Positions 8,338 through 33,322 of a stretch of DNA of 36,403 nt are shown piece by piece. Each line of letters begins with the position of its first letter. Position 1 is the first letter of the stretch. The position numbers and the translations under genes are program-made. The DNA is from Candidatus Sulfotelmatobacter sp. (GTDB taxonomy: Bacteria > Acidobacteriota > Terriglobia > Terriglobales > Acidobacteriaceae), in the NCBI GenBank assembly GCA_030038255.1, contig JASHPH010000197.1, positions 1 through 36,403 on the forward strand. Reading direction: 5' to 3'. The notes below the pieces were generated by a model. It saw nothing but the letters and a program-made list of their open reading frames with translations. It did no database searches and was not told the DNA's origin.

Positions 8338-8438
8338 GTTACTTCCCATTCGTCCCCTACTTTATTGTTAAGATGCCGCTGGCGGACCTGCTGGATGCCG
8401 GGCCGCCCTTCCACCACGCCCTGGAGCTTGCTTACATT

Positions 8439-9161
8439 ATGGACACCGCACATCCTCTGACCGGACAGGTAGCCGTTGTCACCGGAGCGGGACGCGGCAT
8501 CGGCGCCGCCATCGCCCGCCAACTTGCCCATCTCGGCGCCACTACTGCGCTCTGCGGTCGCACCCAAGCCACGCTTGAGGCCACTGCGCGCGCCATCCTC
8601 GATGCCGGCGGCAAGGTTGAAATCATTCCCTGCGATGTCACCGTTTTGCATCAGCTCGAATACGCCGCCACGCGTCTGGAAAGCACTTTTGGGCGTCTCG
8701 ACATCCTCGTCAACAACGCCGGCATTGGCCGCTTCAGCGAGCCGCTTCACCAGCTTCTGCCCGACGACTGGGACCGCATCCTCAACACGAATCTCCGCGG
8801 CGTTTTCTTCGCCATCCGCGCCTTTGCCCCGATCATGATCCGCGCCGGTTCTGGGCACATCATCAACATTTCGTCGCTGGCGGGGAAAAATGCTCTGCCC
8901 AACGGCGCCGCCTACGCGGCTTCCAAGTGGGGACTGAATGGCTTGTCGTATTCTGTCGCCGAGGAACTGCGCGGCCACAACATTCGCGTCTCGGTCATCT
9001 GCCCCGGCTCAACCGAGACCGAACTAGGTCCACATGCCGGCCGAGACCCGAACAAAATGCTGCAGCCCGACGACATTGCGCACGCCGTCGCCATGCTCGT
9101 CACCCAGGCGCCGCAATCGTTTGTGAGTGAGATTCTGATTCGGCCGACCCAAAAGCCGTAG
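8439..9161 (+). CDS. Short-chain dehydrogenase/reductase, FabG-like
   Basis: A 240-residue classical SDR, an NAD(P)-dependent oxidoreductase. Visible motifs: dinucleotide-binding TGAGRGIG (15-22), NNAG (92-95), the catalytic Ser at 145/146 (ISSLAG), and YAASK with Tyr159 and Lys163. The sequence is close to 3-oxoacyl-ACP reductase-type members, but the substrate cannot be read from it, and no fatty-acid genes are adjacent. The start at 8439 (MDTAHPLTG) is preferred because it begins just before the Rossmann strand and has GGAG at 8423-8426; an upstream in-frame ATG at 8373 would add 22 residues of poor quality. It is divergent from the TPR gene. Confidence 0.9.
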   Translation: MDTAHPLTGQVAVVTGAGRGIGAAIARQLAHLGATTALCGRTQATLEATARAILDAGGKVEIIPCDVTVLHQLEYAATRLESTFGRLDILVNNAGIGRFSEPLHQLLPDDWDRILNTNLRGVFFAIRAFAPIMIRAGSGHIINISSLAGKNALPNGAAYAASKWGLNGLSYSVAEELRGHNIRVSVICPGSTETELGPHAGRDPNKMLQPDDIAHAVAMLVTQAPQSFVSEILIRPTQKP

Positions 9162-9168
9162 GTCTCAT

Positions 9169-9256
9169 GTAGGGACAGCCGCCCTTGGCTGTCCGGCGGA
9201 GGGAAGCACCGCTTTGATGCCGCTGGATTGGAAGGGGTGCGGCTTCCAGCCGCGCC
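9169..9256 (+). repeat. Palindromic repeats, family B plus a GCGGCT palindrome
   Basis: GTAGGGACAGCC and GGCTGTCC form a hairpin at 9173-9194, followed by a GCGGCT/AGCCGC palindrome at 9239-9253. The first part is the same unit seen inside the aminotransferase (11751) and at the end of the cytochrome b gene (31628). It lies between convergent genes. Confidence 0.75.
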
Positions 9257-9824: not shown

Positions 9825-9867
9825 GTCATCCTGAGCGAGGCGGTTCTTGCCGAGTCGAAGGATCTGG
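9825..9867 (+). repeat. Dispersed intergenic repeat, family A
   Basis: GTCATCCTGAGCGAGG at the left and GAGTCGAAGGATCT at the right, the standard arrangement of this family. It lies between the zinc-ribbon gene and the hydrolase gene. Confidence 0.75.
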
Positions 9868-9984
9868 GCGAGCCGCGCGAAGCGTCGCGAGGCTTTTATT
9901 AAGAAAAGCCGCGATGCAATAATCGCGCGTTCGGCTCGCTTCCTGATTGTTCCTTCTACTCACCACGCCGTTTAAAATGAGAAG

Positions 9985-11211: not shown

Positions 11212-12612
11212 TCATTCAGCTATGTACGCCAGAAGTCTACTAATCCCCTCCCCAAACTCCACCTCCTCCCCAATCAAGCTCACCACCAAATACCCATCGC
11301 TCGGGAAATCGTAAAAATGCCCCGGATGCAGTAGCACTCGCTTCTCGCGCACCAACTCGATCGCCAACTCCTCATCCGACCGCGTCATCGGAACGCGCAG
11401 CACCGCATACCATCCACCTTCCACTTCCAGCCGCTGACAAGCCTTCTTCCCCGCCAGTTGCCGATCGAGCTCGACGAGATTTTTTTCAACCCGCTCAAGT
11501 AATTGCTCTTGAATACTTTTTCTTTGCGCCAGCAGCGTCGGCACCGCCCACTGGACCGGCGCATTCATTGACAGATACGTATCAGCAATCACCTCCAGCC
11601 GCGCCATCGCCGCCGCAACTTGATCCTCCGGCCCGTTGGTCACGATCCACGCCACCTTCATCTGCGGCAGCGCCGCAATCTTCGACAGCCCACTCAGCGT
11701 AAACGTCAGCACCTCACGGTTGGCAGCAAAACTCGCGTGTTGCGCGGAATATGTAGGGACAGCCGCCCCCGGCTGTCCGGTCGAGCGAAGCTCGACGGTG
11801 CCGGATGCTTCACGAGAAGGCTTTGGGAGGGGCACGGCTTCAGCCGTGCCGTTAAGCGCCAGAGATCCCGGCTTTAGCCCCTGAGGGACTCGTTGTTGAG
11901 CAGGAGATGCCGTCGAGCTTCGCTCGACCGGGCGGACCAATGGGTCCGCCCCTACATGGACATTGCCGGCACCCGCGGCCGAATCCAACCCATAATCCAG
12001 AAACACCTCATCCACAATCAGCGCCAGCCCGCGCTCGCGGCAAAACGCATTCAGCAACTCCACTTCCCCCGCCTTCACATAAGACCCCGTCGGGTTATTC
12101 GGATGCACCACCACCACGCCCCGCGTTCGCCCCGTCACGGCCCGTTCCAGCGAGTGAAAATCCATCTGCCACCCGTGGTCGTAAATCAGCGGATACGGCA
12201 CCAGCTTCACATCCTGCAAATCCGCGAGAAACTCGAACAGCGGATAACTCGGCTTCGGCACCAGCAACTCATCGCCCGCGTTGCACAGCAGGCGAAACAC
12301 GTACGAGTACCCCTCGCTCGTGCTCGTCGTCAGCACAATCCGCTCCGGGTCAACGTCAGCTCCATGATCCGACCGGTAGTACGCCGCCACTTCCTTGCGC
12401 GCCTGCAACAATCCCTTGGCCTGCGCATCGTAATCAAGCGACCGCGGAGAGCTTAACGCCGCCAGGATCGCCTGTGAGTCGTACTCCAGACCCACGCGGG
12501 TCGGATTCGACGCCGTCAGGTCGAGAATCTTCCCGCCCGCCGCGCGCACCTCCTCCACGGCCTGCGTGAAACGGTTCTTCGCCAGCTTCCAGTTCGTGCG
12601 GTCAGAGAACAT
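11212..12612 (-). CDS. PLP-dependent class I/II aminotransferase with repeat-derived insert
   Basis: A 466-residue fold-type I aminotransferase. Visible features: SNPTRVGLEY near the N-terminus, TTSTSEGYSYVFRLL (about 95-109), the HPNNPTGS loop (170-177), the DEVFLDY strand with the cofactor-contacting Asp201, and SGLSK with the PLP-binding Lys311. The substrate is unknown. Homologues of this type have about 390 residues; the excess is a block at about 212-292, between DEVFLDYGLD and SFAANREVLTFTLSG, encoded by palindromic repeats (see 11751-11957). The start at 12612 (MFSDRTNW) is chosen because the 36 upstream codons come from another repeat and from sequence without protein character; the Shine-Dalgarno is weak (GGGGA). 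The rest of the reading frame is intact. Confidence 0.88.
   Translation of the reverse strand: MFSDRTNWKLAKNRFTQAVEEVRAAGGKILDLTASNPTRVGLEYDSQAILAALSSPRSLDYDAQAKGLLQARKEVAAYYRSDHGADVDPERIVLTTSTSEGYSYVFRLLCNAGDELLVPKPSYPLFEFLADLQDVKLVPYPLIYDHGWQMDFHSLERAVTGRTRGVVVVHPNNPTGSYVKAGEVELLNAFCRERGLALIVDEVFLDYGLDSAAGAGNVHVGADPLVRPVERSSTASPAQQRVPQGLKPGSLALNGTAEAVPLPKPSREASGTVELRSTGQPGAAVPTYSAQHASFAANREVLTFTLSGLSKIAALPQMKVAWIVTNGPEDQVAAAMARLEVIADTYLSMNAPVQWAVPTLLAQRKSIQEQLLERVEKNLVELDRQLAGKKACQRLEVEGGWYAVLRVPMTRSDEELAIELVREKRVLLHPGHFYDFPSDGYLVVSLIGEEVEFGEGISRLLAYIAE
11751..11957. repeat. 207-bp composite palindromic element inside the aminotransferase gene
   Basis: Bounded by ATGTAGGG (11751-11758) and its complement CCCTACAT (11950-11957). 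Inward from each end lies a hairpin (GGACAGCC/GGCTGTCC at 11757-11778; GGGCGGACC/GGTCCGCCC at 11930-11951) and then GTCGAG/CTCGAC palindromes (11780-11796; 11912-11928) in mirror order. The middle contains GGCACGGCTTCAGCCGTGCC (11831-11850). The length is exactly 69 codons without an in-frame stop. Related units occur between genes elsewhere in the window. Confidence 0.85.
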
Positions 12613-12749
12613 CAGAAGAGTCCCCACAGCATCGCTGCGTTGATGGAATTCTACGTGACAGACGAGTAAGTAATGCAGTGTGATCAGGAAGCGAGCCAAA
12701 CGCGCGTTCTTGCGTCGCAAGAATCGCGACGCTTCGCGCGGCTCGCTCA

Positions 12750-12787
12750 GATCCTTCGCTGCGCACAGGACGCTTGGTCAGGATGAC
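12750..12787 (-). repeat. Dispersed intergenic repeat, family A (reverse orientation)
   Basis: Reads GATCCTTCG ... GGTCAGGATGAC on the plus strand, the reverse of the family consensus. The open frame upstream of the aminotransferase start runs close to it. The surrounding 12613-12883 holds no gene. Confidence 0.65.
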
Positions 12788-15948: not shown

Positions 15949-16392
15949 GTGTCACGATCTGCACTGGTTCTTCCCGCACTCATTCTCCTAGCCATCGCGC
16001 TACCCGCGCAGCAAACCTCAACTCCCAAGACTTCCAGTTACTCCGCCATTCCGGTCGACGCCGCCAAGGCGCAGAATCCGGTGAAGAGCTCGCCCGAATC
16101 CCTTGCACGCGCCAAGAAATGGTGGAACCTCGATTGCGCCATGTGTCACGGCGCCGAGGGGAACGGTAAAGGCGAGACTGCCCGCGACATGAAACTCACC
16201 ATCGCGGATTTCACTGATCCCGCCACTCTCAAAGACCATACCGACGGCGAGCTTTACTACGTCATCAAGAACGGTCACCAGGACATGCCGCCCGAGGGCG
16301 AGCGGGTCACCACCCAAGAAGGATGGGATCTGGTCAACTACGTCCGCTCCCTCGCGAAGAAGAAGCCCGAGGCCGATCAGAAACCTCAGTAG
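15949..16392 (+). CDS. Exported monohaem cytochrome c
   Basis: A 147-residue exported class I-like cytochrome c. It has a signal peptide (MSRSALVLPALILLAIALPA), a haem-binding CAMCH (Cys63, Cys66, His67) followed by GAEGNGKG, and a probable distal Met113 in QDMPPEG. The C-terminal helix contains GWDLVNYVRSLAKK. Its C-terminus is Lys/Pro-rich. It acts in the periplasm as an electron carrier; the partner is not evident from the neighbours. The GTG start at 15949 is supported by AGGAGG at 15938-15943. Confidence 0.92.
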   Translation: MSRSALVLPALILLAIALPAQQTSTPKTSSYSAIPVDAAKAQNPVKSSPESLARAKKWWNLDCAMCHGAEGNGKGETARDMKLTIADFTDPATLKDHTDGELYYVIKNGHQDMPPEGERVTTQEGWDLVNYVRSLAKKKPEADQKPQ

Positions 16393-16503
16393 AGCGCAGT
16401 TGTCGAGGATAAGAGCGGGTTTCTAGGTAAGCGAAGATTGAGTTTCGCAAGCGCGACGTTCCATCCCAGTCGAAGCATCCCCACCCTAGGTGAGTTTGGC
16501 CCT

Positions 16504-16848: not shown

Positions 16849-17017
16849 GCGTTTTTCGTCCTCGCCTTCGAAGTGGGAACAGCTATTCGTTCACTTTGAG
16901 CTATCAGTGTGCCCAGCCGCAAGTAAGAAGGAAGATTCCCCAATTTGTGAGAATCGTTCTGAGGAGTGGCGGGCCATCAGCGTGGCGATTTACCCGCAAA
17001 GCAGCAAGATGGGGAAG

Positions 17018-20611: not shown

Positions 20612-20618
20612 TAGCGGC

Positions 20619-20657
20619 TGCCCCATTTCCGCCGCGCTCGTTGCGGCAGAAGTGGGG
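20619..20657. repeat. CCCCAT...TGGGG palindromic element, copy 1
   Basis: CCCCATTTCCGCCGC (20621-20635) pairs with GCGGCAGAAGTGGGG (20643-20657), with few mismatches and a short loop. It lies between the convergent S9 peptidase and kimA-like genes, followed by ATTTTCTC, so it may also terminate transcription. A near-identical copy is on the other side of the kimA-like gene. Confidence 0.75.
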
Positions 20658-20665
20658 ATTTTCTC

Positions 20666-22534
20666 TCATGCCTTCAAGTGATACGGAATCGACGCCACCG
20701 TAATCCTCTGATTTCCGTTAAAAAGGAGCAGCGCTCGAATCGCCTCCGGCCGGTTGTTGTGCAACAAGTAGTGATACCAGTGGCTCTCCACCAGCTCCGG
20801 TATCAGCATCGTGATCGTGCGCTCCGGCTGCGCCGTCTGCTGCTGAATCGCATAATCAACGATGGGCTTCACAATAAAACGGTACGGCGAAGTGAGCACG
20901 ACCAGTCTCGGCGGAGGCAGTCCAGCCGCTTGCGCCGGCTGCTCCACCACGTTGCTCCACTGCCGCTGCAGTTCATCCGTCTTCTCCCCGCAGGCCACGT
21001 GCAGCACATGAATTTCCTTCGACAGCGTCCACGCAAAGCGCAACGCCTGTTCCGCCACCAGACTCCAACGATCAATCGGCACCAGCACCACCGGCTCAGA
21101 AAGATTTCCGGTGTGAACCGGCGTGGCCACGCGAATTTCCTGCGCTACCCGCGCGTAATGGCTCTGCACCGAGCGCATCATCCAGATGAGCGCCGGAATC
21201 AGTAGCACCGTGATCCACGCTCCATCCACAAACTTTGCCACCAGAACGACGGCCGTCGTAATCCCGGTCGCCAACGCGCCGAGTCCGTTCAGCACCATGC
21301 TGTGCCGCGCTCCCGGTCCCCCATGCCGCTTCCAGTGCACCACCATGCCCGCCTGCGAGAGCGTGAACGCCAGGAACGCGCCCACCGCATAAAGAGGAAT
21401 CAACCGGTCGGTAATCCCACCAAAAATAATCAGCAGCAGTCCCGTCAGCGCCGCCAGCGCATAGATTCCCTGCGCATACACCAGCCGCCGGCCGCGAATC
21501 ACAAACGCGTGCGGCAGATATCCGTTCTGCGCGATCGCCCGCGCCAGCCGCGGAAAATCCGCAAAGGCCGTGTTCGCCGAGAGCGACAACACAATCAGGA
21601 TCGACACAATGCTGACCCAGTAGAACGCCCCGCGCCCCGTCACTGCCGCCAGCAACATCGAAAGCACGCTCTGATAGCCCGGCACTCCCGGATCCGTCGC
21701 AGCAATCCCGTACGCCGGCACGAGGAACGCAATGCCGAGCAGCATCACCATCAGAATTCCGATGATGATCGTCAGCGTCAGCTTCGCAGTCTTGTCCGTC
21801 TGCTCGCGAAACGCCATGACGCCGTTGCTCACTGCCTCAACGCCCGTCATCGCCGTGCAGCCGCTCGAAAACGTCCGCAACAAAAGCCACGCGCCCACCG
21901 TCCCCGTAACCGCGGTCAACTTCGGCGGCATCACCACCGGCACAGGATGCCCGCCCGCCGCGAATGTCTTCACCAGCCCGATCGCGATCAGGCCGAGCAG
22001 GCAAAAGATGAAAATGTAAGTCGGCAACAGAAACACTCCACCCGTCTCCTGCACGCCGCGCAGGTTCACCACAGTGATCACGAACAAAATCGCGAGACAT
22101 AGCCAGAGCGTCCTGCTCTCCAGCGACGGCACCGCCGAAACCAGCGCGCCCACGCCCGCCGAGATGCCAACGGCTGCCGTGAGCACGTAGTCAATCATCA
22201 GCGCCGCCGCAGCCAGCAACCCAGCGCTCTCGCCCAGGTTCTCGCTCGCCACGGTGTACGAGCCGCCGCCCAGCGGATACGCCGAGATCGTCTGCCGATA
22301 CGAGAAGTACACAATGCCCAGCAGAATCACGATCCCGATTGTGATCGGCCACACGTACGCCGCACCCGCCATGCCCAGCGGAATCAGCAGCGTCAGCGCA
22401 GCTTCGGGACCGTACGCCGCCGAGCTCAGTGCATCGAGGCCAAAGATCGGAATGCCCTTTAACGGGCCAATGCGCTCCGCCTTCTCTTCTTCGGTGGCCA
22501 GCGGCCGCCCGAACAGCGTGTCCACAATATTCAC
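20666..22534 (-). CDS. kimA: KimA-like APC-superfamily potassium importer
   Basis: A 622-residue inner-membrane transporter. The N-terminal ~450 residues hold about 12 membrane spans, with LDALSSAAYGPE (33-44), YRQTISAYPLGGGSY, NLGE, and LRTFSSGCTAMTGVEAVSNG in order. After residue ~455 comes a cytoplasmic USP-like domain (VVLVPIDRWSLVAEQAL, HVLHVACGE) ending ASIPYHLKA. This order and wording match B. subtilis KimA (YdaO), a high-affinity proton-coupled K+ importer, better than other APC permeases. KimA is controlled by c-di-AMP in Firmicutes; no such riboswitch is visible here in the short upstream region. The ATG at 22534 matches the family start. Potassium as substrate is inferred by homology. 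Confidence 0.85.
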   Translation of the reverse strand: MNIVDTLFGRPLATEEEKAERIGPLKGIPIFGLDALSSAAYGPEAALTLLIPLGMAGAAYVWPITIGIVILLGIVYFSYRQTISAYPLGGGSYTVASENLGESAGLLAAAALMIDYVLTAAVGISAGVGALVSAVPSLESRTLWLCLAILFVITVVNLRGVQETGGVFLLPTYIFIFCLLGLIAIGLVKTFAAGGHPVPVVMPPKLTAVTGTVGAWLLLRTFSSGCTAMTGVEAVSNGVMAFREQTDKTAKLTLTIIIGILMVMLLGIAFLVPAYGIAATDPGVPGYQSVLSMLLAAVTGRGAFYWVSIVSILIVLSLSANTAFADFPRLARAIAQNGYLPHAFVIRGRRLVYAQGIYALAALTGLLLIIFGGITDRLIPLYAVGAFLAFTLSQAGMVVHWKRHGGPGARHSMVLNGLGALATGITTAVVLVAKFVDGAWITVLLIPALIWMMRSVQSHYARVAQEIRVATPVHTGNLSEPVVLVPIDRWSLVAEQALRFAWTLSKEIHVLHVACGEKTDELQRQWSNVVEQPAQAAGLPPPRLVVLTSPYRFIVKPIVDYAIQQQTAQPERTITMLIPELVESHWYHYLLHNNRPEAIRALLLFNGNQRITVASIPYHLKA

Positions 22535-22591
22535 GTGGCTGTCCCCTGGGTAGAGTGCCAGCCATCATACCTGCTCAGTCACACTTGCGGT

Positions 22592-22630
22592 TGCCCCATT
22601 TCTGCCGCGCTGTTTGCGGAAGAAGTGGGG
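22592..22630. repeat. CCCCAT...TGGGG palindromic element, copy 2
   Basis: CCCCATTTCTGCCGC ... GCGGAAGAAGTGGGG, differing from copy 1 at only a few bases and in the loop. It lies in the divergent region of the kimA-like and rhodanese genes. Confidence 0.75.
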
Positions 22631-22681
22631 TTCGTCTCTCCCCCGTTGCCCCGCATCCATCGAACCGGAGACAATGGAACC

Positions 22682-29065: not shown

Positions 29066-29078
29066 TTGCCCGCCCACA

Positions 29079-29133
29079 GGGGCTAAAGCCCCGATTCATT
29101 TCGGTGTCTTCTTGGCACGGCTGAAGCCGTGCC
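29079..29133. repeat. Short palindromic repeats, family C
   Basis: GGGGCTAAAGCCCC (29079-29092) and GGCACGGCTGAAGCCGTGCC (29114-29133). The first recurs at 30681; the second recurs in reverse complement within the aminotransferase insert (11831-11850). They lie between the antitoxin and the convergent DinB-like gene. Confidence 0.8.
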
Positions 29134-29156
29134 CTTCCCGGTCCCCGACGCTTCCC

Positions 29157-30694: not shown

Positions 30695-30838
30695 CAGCCA
30701 GCAGAGTGCCGGTTTTCCGACTCACGTCCGCGTTCAACGTCCGTCCAAAGAATGTCGCGGGAGAATCGCCATCCCGATGTAGAATCCGGAGAATTGGGGA
30801 TTGGGGCTCACGCTGGGGTTCGGAGCTGGGGTTCAGAA

Positions 30839-31687
30839 ATGAATGCAAGTTTGCCGATCGCCGACGGCGGCGCGGGGCCGGCTGCTGCGGTCAGGCCTTC
30901 TTCCGCCGCGTCCGCTGCCACGGAGCCGAAGCGCCACACCGCCCTGGTGCGTGTAACGCACTGGCTGACCACCGTGGCTTTCCTTGCTCTGCTGCTGACG
31001 GGCGGAGAAATTGTTCTCTCGCATCCGCGGTTTTATTGGGGCGAGGACGGCAACGTGAACATGCGGCCGTGGCTCAATCTGCACCTTCCTTCTTCGCGCG
31101 ACACCGTGCCCACGGGCTACAGATTCGTGCTGCCCGATGAGAATGGCTGGAGCCGCTATCTGCATTTCGAGGCGGCGTGGGTTGCGGTCGTGACGGGATT
31201 ACTGTACGTGCTTTGGGGGCTCTTCAACGGGCACTTCCGGCGCAACGTGCTCCCTGCTCCATCGGACCTTTCCGCGAGGCAGCTCGCCGACTCGGCGATG
31301 AAGCATTTGCGCTTCGAGCGGCCGGGCGCGGAAGAGGCGTGGTCGTACAATGTGCTGCAGCGCCTGTCGTATCTGGTCGTCATCTTCGTGCTCTTCCCGC
31401 TAATGATCTGGACGGGCCTCGCGATGTCGTTCGGGTTTGATGCGGCCTTTCCGCTGGCGGTTAGGCTCTTAGGAGGTCACCAGACGGCGCGGTCCCTGCA
31501 TTTTCTAGTGACGATATTGCTTGTGCTGTTTCTTGTGGTTCACGTTGTGATGGTTTTTGTTGCCGGATTTCGGAGCCGGATGCGGGCCATGATCACCGGG
31601 ACAATGATTACCGGCCGCGCCGACCGTGTAGGGACAGCCGCCTCGACTGTCCGTCGAGCGCAGCTCAACCAGGAGTCGACTTTATGA
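30839..31687 (+). CDS. Cytochrome b561-type membrane subunit
   Basis: A 282-residue inner-membrane di-haem cytochrome b. Four spans are visible: about 40-60 (HWLTTVAFLALLLTGGEIVL), 108-130, 177-200 and 219-243. Candidate haem ligands are His41 (RVTHWL), His109, His221 and His235. It is expected to pass electrons between the quinone pool and the periplasmic molybdoenzyme encoded next. The ATG at 30839 has GGAG about 13 bases upstream. Its gene overlaps the next by 4 nt (ATGA). The last ~20 residues (DRVGTAASTVRRAQLNQEST) are encoded by a family B repeat and are probably not part of the original protein. Confidence 0.88.
   Translation: MNASLPIADGGAGPAAAVRPSSAASAATEPKRHTALVRVTHWLTTVAFLALLLTGGEIVLSHPRFYWGEDGNVNMRPWLNLHLPSSRDTVPTGYRFVLPDENGWSRYLHFEAAWVAVVTGLLYVLWGLFNGHFRRNVLPAPSDLSARQLADSAMKHLRFERPGAEEAWSYNVLQRLSYLVVIFVLFPLMIWTGLAMSFGFDAAFPLAVRLLGGHQTARSLHFLVTILLVLFLVVHVVMVFVAGFRSRMRAMITGTMITGRADRVGTAASTVRRAQLNQESTL
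31628..31669 (+). repeat. Family B repeat inside the end of the cytochrome b gene
   Basis: GTAGGGACAGCCGCC, then ACTGTCC, then GTCGAGCGCAGCTCAAC: the same order of units as at 11751-11796, slightly decayed. It is read in frame and supplies most of the cytochrome's C-terminal tail. Confidence 0.8.
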
Positions 31688-32442
31688 GCGAGATTTCTCG
31701 GCGCACACTAATCACTTCAGGGCTCGCACTCGCGGCCGGCGCTTCCGGCCTCACCGTGGGCGCCAACCTGGCGAAGCGTTACGGGCTCATCCCGCCGGAT
31801 GCGGGGGGAGTTTACGGCCCGGGTGAGACGCTCACCTATGCTGCGCAGCGGCTGCTCGGGAGCCATGCTATGGCGCGGGAATTTTCGCGCAGCGAGATTT
31901 CGAAAAATCCCTTCGCCAACGAAGTCGACCCGCTGGGAGACGACTTCAAACGACTCCAGGCAGCGAACTTTGTCGACTGGAAACTGACTGTGGACGGCTT
32001 GGCGGCGCGACCAACGACTTTCTCGCTGGCCGAGATCACGAGTTTCCCCACGAGTTCGCAGATCACCATGATCGGCTGCGAGGAGGGCTGGACTTACATC
32101 GCCGAATGGGCGGGCGTGCCGCTCTCTTACATTCTCGACCGCGTCGGCGCTCGGCCGCAGGTCCGCTACGTCGTTTACCGCTCGATTCAACCCGACTGGT
32201 GGGAGAGCATCGACATGTCCGATGCCCTGCACGCGCAAACGCTCGTCGCTCACCGAATGAACGGCGCCGAGCTTCCCGTTCCCTTCGGAGGACCGCTGCG
32301 CCTGCGCGTTCCGCGGCAACTGGGCTATAAGAGCGTGAAGTACATCAACCACCTGACTCTCACCGACAACCTCAAACAATTCGGCAAAGGGACAGGCGGG
32401 GCAAACTCAGACGGCGGCTACGCTTGGTACGCCGGCATCTGA
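31684..32442 (+). CDS. Tat-exported molybdopterin-dependent oxidoreductase (sulfite oxidase fold, YedY/MsrP-like)
   Basis: A 252-residue protein. It has a twin-arginine signal (ISRRTLITSGLALAAGASGL), showing folded export with cofactor. The sulfite-oxidase-type Moco domain follows: LTVDGLAARPTTFSLAEI, TMIGCEEGWTY with the molybdenum ligand Cys132, WAGVPLSYIL, and the MNGAELPVPFGGPLRLRVP segment. MsrP (YedY) repairs methionine sulfoxide in the periplasm with the haem protein MsrQ; here the partner is instead a cytochrome b561-type subunit with a 4-nt gene overlap. The substrate is not fixed by the sequence. Confidence 0.92.
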   Translation: MSEISRRTLITSGLALAAGASGLTVGANLAKRYGLIPPDAGGVYGPGETLTYAAQRLLGSHAMAREFSRSEISKNPFANEVDPLGDDFKRLQAANFVDWKLTVDGLAARPTTFSLAEITSFPTSSQITMIGCEEGWTYIAEWAGVPLSYILDRVGARPQVRYVVYRSIQPDWWESIDMSDALHAQTLVAHRMNGAELPVPFGGPLRLRVPRQLGYKSVKYINHLTLTDNLKQFGKGTGGANSDGGYAWYAGI

Positions 32443-33135: not shown

Positions 33136-33280
33136 ACAAACCCTCGGGCGCTCCAATCGTGCAACTTCGAATTGACGTTGCAACATATCACCGGGCTGAC
33201 GGATGCGCAATGATGAGGGGCACACAGACGCTGTTTGTCGCGGACAACTGATCTTCCTAGCCGCTAGCCTTTTCGCTGCT

Positions 33281-33302
33281 GGGCGGACGAGGGCGTCCGC
33301 CC
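33281..33302. repeat. GGGCGGAC...GTCCGCCC palindrome
   Basis: 8-bp arms with a 6-base loop. It shares its arms with the right-hand hairpin of the aminotransferase insert (11930-11951). It lies 21 bp after the end of the leftward cytochrome c gene and could also act in its termination, although no T-tract is seen. Confidence 0.7.
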
Positions 33303-33322
33303 GTCCATGTCCGTTACTCGTT

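Follow-up and report, generated by a model that had tools for sequence, protein, structure and literature searches.

Palindromic repeats that lie in frame within protein-coding genes have precedents. In work of 2000 and 2002, Ogata et al. reportedly found palindromic elements in frame in unrelated genes of Rickettsia, and such insertions have been raised for Rickettsia as a source of new protein segments. A further arrangement to be considered is the REPIN, in which two inverted REPs form one mobile unit.

Passages of PMC10969869 give the Rickettsia palindromic elements as ~150 bp in length and as encoding a conserved peptide. GTAG REPs, as characterized in parts of Di Nocera et al. 2013 (PMC3733652), combine an unpaired GTAG-type tag with a stem-loop, occur in dimers or clusters, and are associated with RAYT genes that are flanked by family members. 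The same parts of that paper describe intragenic in-frame REPs of 20-30 aa (43-82 aa for clusters), several of them in DNA repair genes, as well as in-frame palindromic elements from several phyla, and note that two Xanthomonas species have different REPs at nearly the same position in recB; Acidobacteria are mentioned in them solely for transposase genes flanked by terminal repeats. For the IS200/IS605-type TnpA-REP (RAYT) enzymes, passages of PMC8266576 indicate that the GTAG acts in the choice of cleavage site, and that a GTGG variant is still cut in one system. Among the titles and abstract openings listed from the open-licence literature, no description of intragenic REPs in Acidobacteria or Sulfotelmatobacter was found; a part of PMC12306157 tabulates REP counts for three acidobacteria, the word "intragenic" being absent from that paper. 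In-frame REPs are already known, from Rickettsia and Opitutus, and are extended here by hot spots in multiple genes and by a silent-site contrast.

The locus considered here lies in a 36,403-nt stretch of DNA, termed the window, which is contig C345 of a 5.1-Mb draft genome (the source genome, estimated to be 94.76% complete and 5.16% contaminated); the compared genomes of the genus are 45 drafts, mostly MAGs. The gene hosting the insert lies in a full ORF of 11212-12720, which matches Pfam PF00155 (E=2.3e-34), the start codon (an ATG, giving 466 aa) being our choice as guided by orthologues. The top Foldseek matches of the product are an E. coli aminotransferase (4cvq) and the alanine aminotransferase of P. 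furiosus (1xi9), and the motifs NPTG, DEVF and the lysine SGLSK are all intact. Amino acid identity with relatives that have filled loops is near 80%, while their four-fold silent sites are 58-71% identical to those of G000; this contrast and the intact motifs together imply that the gene is under purifying selection. The host gene and the repeat features of the window, located with models R1 (unit A) and R2 (element B), are as follows.

11212..12612, minus strand: gene for a PLP aminotransferase (fold type I), host of the insert, 466 aa from ATG (translation, PF00155, Foldseek)
11751..11957, no strand assigned: in-frame composite insert of 207 nt, i.e. 69 codons, made up of unit A, B and an inverted unit A (repeat models)
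11751..11796, plus strand: REP unit A (R1 76.9 bits, E=1e-16; family covariation)
11823..11887, plus strand: REP-like element B, a GGCACGGCTTCAGCCGTGCC hairpin and then GGCTTTAGCC (R2 80.5 bits)
11912..11957, minus strand: REP unit A, second copy, of another hairpin-1 subtype (R1 68.9 bits)
9167..9212, plus strand: unit A, intergenic, just after the stop codon of an SDR gene (R1 54.9 bits; SDR ORF 8373-9161)
29073..29141, minus strand: second copy of B in the window (R2 66.1 bits)
31626..31669, plus strand: unit A coding for part of the C-terminal tail of cytochrome b561 (R1 43.2 bits; ORF 30752-31687)
33263..33308, minus strand: weak, degenerate match to unit A (R1 28.3 bits, E=4e-5)

An earlier note on this DNA had described a block with mirrored ends, hairpins and GTCGAG palindromes at 11751-11957, lying without a stop in the coding frame between the DEVFLDY strand and the PLP-lysine segment. 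This description stands: the arms of the insert (11751-11798 and 11910-11957, 48 nt each, with 111 nt between them) are 77% complementary, and the minus-strand ORF is open throughout, the insert being stop-free between DEVFLDY and SGLSK. The loop of the source genome measures 303 nt, compared with 69 nt in insert-free orthologues, i.e. it is 234 nt (78 codons) longer; since the insert accounts for 69 codons, ~9 codons are linker. The AlphaFold model (36 sequences, mean pLDDT 74) has values below 50 at residues 211-290 and 1-10, the remainder being folded as an aminotransferase. Mapped in this way, as the earlier note had suggested, the insert is predicted to form a disordered loop of the translated protein. 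A clean target-site duplication was not established for the window insert, the flanks of which are only loosely repeated.

Both A units of the insert have the GTAG tag and two hairpins; hairpin 2 is common to them, but their hairpin-1 stems differ, so the outer pair does not consist of a single sequence in two orientations. In the first unit the tag is TGTAG, with hairpin 1 at 11757-11778 and hairpin 2 at 11780-11796, and the gene reads the unit as its reverse complement, giving the peptide VELRSTGQPGAAVPT; in the second, hairpin 2 is at 11912-11928 and hairpin 1 at 11930-11951, the peptide being VGADPLVRPVERSS. When as many as 3 mismatches are allowed, the sequence GTCGAGCGAAGCTCGAC has 5 matches within the window (at three places, of which two count once on each strand) compared with 0.36 expected, and 5 was reached by none of 100 shuffles. 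Two similar units, at 9169 and 31628, had been called intergenic; the former is, following the SDR stop at 9161, but the latter is coding, in the tail of a cytochrome b561 in which PF01292 ends at residue 283 of 311.

Unit A, as a family, is a 46-nt, GTAG-tagged element with two hairpins. In the alignment of 22 copies from which R1 was built, 97.4% of cells are paired and 7 of the 16 pairs have changed on both sides, neither value being reached in 500 shuffles; the tags of these copies are GTAG in 14, GTGG in 6, and GTCG and GCAG in one each. The source genome has at least 84 unit A matches with E<=1e-3 among the best 150 of 6448 candidates scored, and at least 100 B matches at the same threshold among the best 150 of 1758. 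Matches to R1 with E<=1e-6 occur in all 45 genus genomes, from 2 to at least 138 in each. Of four example units, those with a GTAG tag are stop-free in five of six frames and those with GTGG in all six, which helps to account for the ability of genes to carry the family.

With GTAG REPs, unit A shares an unpaired GTAG-type tetranucleotide tag preceding a stem-loop, conserved pairing and many dispersed copies. GTAG REPs are, however, given as 20-40 bp with one palindrome in parts of PMC3733652, whereas unit A has 46 nt and two hairpins; it is therefore called REP-type here, rather than a member of a listed GTAG family. The present case further differs from GTAG REPs, as presented in those parts of that paper, in that loops shared as hot spots by sets of orthologues hold several unrelated families, and in the contrast to silent sites measured here. 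Like the Rickettsia palindromic elements, the units lie in frame in unrelated genes and are tolerated in the protein; unlike them, as described, they occur with RAYT-type transposase genes. The Rickettsia elements are ~150 bp with one conserved peptide in the passages of PMC10969869, compared with 46-68 nt here; unit A, being read in at least four frames, lacks a single conserved peptide.

The earlier note had suggested that the composite, with two related units facing each other across a different palindrome, may be the true mobile unit. In part this is borne out, in that A occurs within 100 nt of B at 5 places of the source genome, always preceding it, in the same orientation and with a gap of 12-69 nt (5/5 pairs, setting aside the second, inverted A of the window); one further pair, 281 nt apart, is in opposite orientation. 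The triple of A, B and inverted A was, however, seen only in the window among the candidates scored, and a genome search for the 207-nt composite gave no second full-length copy among the best 40 of 155 candidates scored, which leaves the composite a mere candidate for the mobile unit. In the source genome, the A pairs with members no more than 300 nt apart comprise 3 inverted ones (the window insert and two elsewhere) and 3 direct ones. Inverted A pairs resembling REPINs are thus found in the window insert, in two more places of the source genome, and in the LpxB loops of G002, G016, G019 and G021; by contrast with REPINs, the window pair encloses family B, its units differ in hairpin 1, and direct A pairs are equally frequent.

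The aminotransferase locus was found in 41 of the 45 genus genomes and is readable at the insert site in 40 (that of G029 is cut there). The loop has no element in 28 of the 40 and is filled in 12, of which 11 are in frame; 26 of the 28 element-free loops have precisely 69 nt between DEVF and the strand that follows, the G027 loop having 15 nt extra with no palindrome by eye, and the G006 locus beginning at a contig end. The filled loops are diverse: forward A in G001 and G019; reversed A in G035, G023 and G346; forward A, reversed A and B in G000; a B-like hairpin in G020; family C in G007, G012 and G326, and also in G019; a different hairpin pair in G347; and, in G017, a CCCACCCT hairpin (family E) followed by an in-frame stop near the contig end. 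The stop after this E-type element (locus L052) may reflect either an insertion that disabled the gene or an error in the sequence. In a second loop of the enzyme, six genomes have a GTAGAGACGTTGC hairpin (family D), and in a third loop G326 has an E-type hairpin. On the evidence of these sequences the aminotransferase loop is an insertion hot spot. Short in-frame tandem duplications with no palindrome were also observed, i.e. GIGQGIRQGIR in the second aminotransferase loop of G345 (L105) and ESKTFESKTFESKTF in the MutS loop of G036 (L353), which implies that these loops tolerate changes of length in general.

In the gene tree, all filled loops except that of G347 fall in one 15-species clade (support 89/82), four members of which are empty; parsimony over 40 rows, with G027 left out, gives 5 changes of presence and 10 of type on a tree that is weakly resolved, with many weak branches. 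Genomes with a filled loop have a median of 88 copies of unit A (n=12) compared with 31 for those without (n=28; Mann-Whitney p=5e-4), in a comparison which ignores kinship and includes counts of up to at least 138. The alignment with sister strains that the earlier note had proposed thus has a mixed outcome, the site being empty in related genomes, as foreseen, but filled with different elements in others. That a spreading palindromic repeat has entered the loop in frame, in a manner comparable to the Rickettsia elements, is borne out by the many genome copies and the empty sites in relatives; its arrival by a single event is not, since sister species hold other elements in the same loop and at least 20 genes of the source genome carry A or B in frame. 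Two further ideas were considered for the origin of the filled loops. An insert private to the source strain was rejected, as sister species carry other elements at the site. Derivation of all filled loops from one composite by deletion was not adopted, since the unit orders in LpxB and, in the aminotransferase, families C, E and F and the G347 loop do not agree with it.

Unit A is in frame in 16 of 80 evaluated units of the source genome (80 of the 84 matches being evaluated), in 15 recognizable genes; 14 of these units were called by a codon-usage script and two (YfiH, MnmE) by eye. The host proteins, identified by Pfam or NCBIfam, are the aminotransferase (two units), MutS, a YfiH-type oxidase, MnmE, LipB, ribonucleotide reductase, UvrD/PcrA, LpxB, an HGSNAT-like membrane protein, DusB, a SerA-type dehydrogenase, an ABC transporter, ParB, SelD and GyrA, the units in the last five (SerA-type to GyrA) scoring only 33-43 bits with R1. 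Copies near predicted N termini (TGT, cytochrome b, cytochrome c) were left uncounted as the true start may lie downstream. In some hosts a single Pfam domain spans the insert with an excess of about the insert length, e.g. 186 residues on 169 positions in LpxB and 215 on 199 in LipB. Element B is in frame in 6 of 30 copies with loci, from at least 100 matches, the hosts being the aminotransferase, KpsF, homoserine dehydrogenase, an FAD/Fe-S protein, a Methyltransf_28 protein and a C26 peptidase. A tRNA-guanine transglycosylase ORF (L028, 264-1652) was also observed to have ~40 extra residues inside its Pfam span, within which GPLTSDRGPEEKQVPRFVRNDKNEGN resembles, by eye, a family C copy read in frame.

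Three of these hosts were followed across the genus. The queries for LpxB, MutS and MnmE included the source genome's own insert, so the 30 best-scoring loci of each favoured filled loops; the 32 remaining loci of the matched genomes (12 LpxB, 11 MutS, 9 MnmE) were hence added. The LpxB loop, between EALRR and EFFGVGG, is filled in 30 of 42 loci and empty in 12 (25 filled among the 30 best-scoring; 5 filled and 7 empty among the other 12). Within the first 30, A is reversed in sixteen (degenerate in G017) and forward in nine, G002 (reversed A then A) counting in both, and G280 has an E-type element. The five filled loops among the added loci comprise A then reversed A in G016, G019, G021 and G032 and a degenerate insert in G022. 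For another genus of the family, the same LpxB site has a clear insert in 11 of 18 loci, an extension of 3-6 residues in 2, and none in 5. In MutS, unit A is present at E<1e-5 in one loop in 14 of 41 loci (the 41 including G022 and G344, which are unreadable) and in 12 of the 30 best-scoring; the corresponding values for one loop of MnmE, which could be parsed in many but not all loci, are 15 of 39 and 14 of 30.

The DNA of the elements is better conserved than the silent sites of the genes around them. In LpxB, 12 reversed-A copies are, as a mean over pairs, 90.1% identical over the element compared with 47.2% at four-fold sites of the gene, the element value being higher in all 66 pairs; in MutS the values are 84.8% and 45.3% (36/36 pairs), and in MnmE 80.4% and 45.9% (28/28 pairs). 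These sets consist of gap-free fits to the model, i.e. 12 of the 20 LpxB copies of A in that orientation, 9 of 14 MutS loci and 8 of 15 MnmE loci with A, which biases element identity upwards; in our judgement, a gap so large and so consistent is unlikely to result from this bias alone. Within the aminotransferase, the contrast holds for reversed A (87-98% compared with 58-70% at silent sites) and for element D (90-100% compared with 58-93%), and is small for forward A (78-85% compared with 67-71%) because the hairpin-1 stem differs between the three genomes concerned (G000, G001, G019).

The same silent-site pattern would be produced by selection on a hairpin in DNA or RNA, and one alternative is that the elements entered once, in an ancestor, and have been kept because an mRNA or DNA hairpin slows ribosomes, protects the mRNA or binds a protein. 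The twelve LpxB copies accord with this in sharing an exact offset (18 nt) and phase despite nearly saturated silent sites, as do third codon positions in LpxB that vary by 0.10 in the element compared with 0.333 in the gene, and the continued pairing of both hairpins; the constant offset points to inheritance, or to specific targeting, of the position itself. Selection on a hairpin is, however, difficult to reconcile with hairpin-1 stems that differ by subfamily at one site (in the aminotransferase of G000, G001 and G019, and in MnmE), with the variation among species in orientation and number of units in LpxB, or with the many relatives that have no element, and we consider it unlikely. The variation at one site of stem subtypes, orientations and unrelated families favours renewal, and we lean towards ongoing replacement or homogenization, rather than hairpin selection, as the cause of the DNA conservation.

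Selection at the protein level, with the insert a functional peptide loop, might be suggested by the constant frame and peptide among the compared copies within each of LpxB, MutS and MnmE. The same unit A DNA is, however, read in at least four frames in different genes, with VELRSTGQPGAAVPT-like readings in the aminotransferase, LpxB and MnmE, SSFARPDSRGRLSLH-like readings in MutS and YfiH, VGTAAPGCPVERSS-like readings in LpxB, MnmE, LipB, RNR, GyrA and others, and a RASLD-like reading in SelD, so peptide selection cannot be the general cause of conservation. Third codon positions are conserved too, the AlphaFold model leaves the insert disordered, and 28 of 40 aminotransferase orthologues are without it, making a functional peptide highly improbable. 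It is barely plausible that the insert is absent from the protein, being removed or bypassed as a long hairpin in the manner of an intron or byp element; although the complete insert folds on itself as a near-closed palindrome (RNA energy -125 kcal/mol, computed for the native sequence alone), the numerous single units of other genes are short and lack this closure, and 11 of 12 filled aminotransferase loops are in frame and stop-free at differing lengths, which a removed insert need not be. An assembly artefact or pseudogene, to which the draft state and 5.16% estimated contamination of the genome and the stop in G017 might point, is scarcely credible in view of the comparable inserts in assemblies of many species, the purifying selection evident from ~80% amino acid compared with 58-71% four-fold identity, and the presence of NPTG, DEVF and the SGLSK lysine.

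The insert is, in our overall reading, probably a cluster of GTAG-tagged REP-type repeats in a loop of an AlaA-like aminotransferase, with later turnover. Insertion of REPs into tolerant loops is very likely and is the well supported part of this reading, whereas the maintenance step is one that we infer. It may be that RAYT (Y1/HuH) enzymes move the units as single-stranded hairpins and that selection purges insertions, except in-frame ones in tolerant loops. Such loops would then serve over long periods as docking sites, their units being lost, gained or swapped for other copies; renewal, by fresh insertion beside an old unit or by gene conversion, would keep the element DNA young as the surrounding silent sites saturate. 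Tentatively, and with a little more doubt than confidence, we propose that the loops of the aminotransferase, LpxB, MutS, MnmE and others are docking sites for REPs on the timescale of the genus, where elements would be exchanged, inverted, trimmed and copied anew, with transposase-linked renewal of the loop DNA and the frame kept. Counting against the docking-site reading, 12 of 42 LpxB loops are empty, as are most aminotransferase loops.

With regard to the enzymes, the source genome has four Y1_Tnp genes, and the GTAG and GTGG tags accord with the cleavage properties described in passages of PMC8266576. The Y1_Tnp gene of contig C247 (16469-16789) is flanked by inverted copies of B, at 16350-16419 (plus) and 16903-16973 (minus), an arrangement for which PMC3733652 uses the name REPtron. 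Around the Y1_Tnp gene of contig C246 are inverted two-hairpin units of A architecture with the tag GTGTGGG, matched by R1 on one side alone and weakly (18.6 bits). Parts of PMC3733652 assign acidobacterial transposases of this type to a group whose terminal repeats bear no relation to GTAG REPs. The A and B units may be moved by the genome's own RAYT-type enzymes. The Y1 transposase gene of contig C83 (locus L109) was observed to be flanked by inverted hairpins of another sequence, with an E-like hairpin element near.

1307-1337, 1914-1944, 2025-2049 (L109, C83): inverted CCCACTCAAGCC hairpins and a separate E-like hairpin

With many species of this group sequenced, a given loop can be compared in its filled, empty and exchanged states, such that the questions of whether such segments are neutral baggage, and of how REP DNA stays intact inside coding sequence, become testable here. 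Variable loops in annotated proteins of this acidobacterial group may be repeat-derived. If the loops are docking sites, their DNA would be continually renewed as drift brings the remainder of the gene to saturation at silent sites.

The window has some further repeats and a gene overlap. Inverted long repeats of another family (TCATCCTGAGCGAG type) pair 9856-9895 with 12719-12758 and 9924-9947 with 12683-12706, one copy sitting just upstream of the aminotransferase start. Direct repeats of 54 nt, 85% alike, at 20614-20667 and 22587-22640, lie at both ends of an amino acid permease gene (20666-22534). The stop of the cytochrome b561 gene (30752-31687) overlaps the start of a molybdopterin oxidoreductase gene (31684-32442) in the sequence ATGA.
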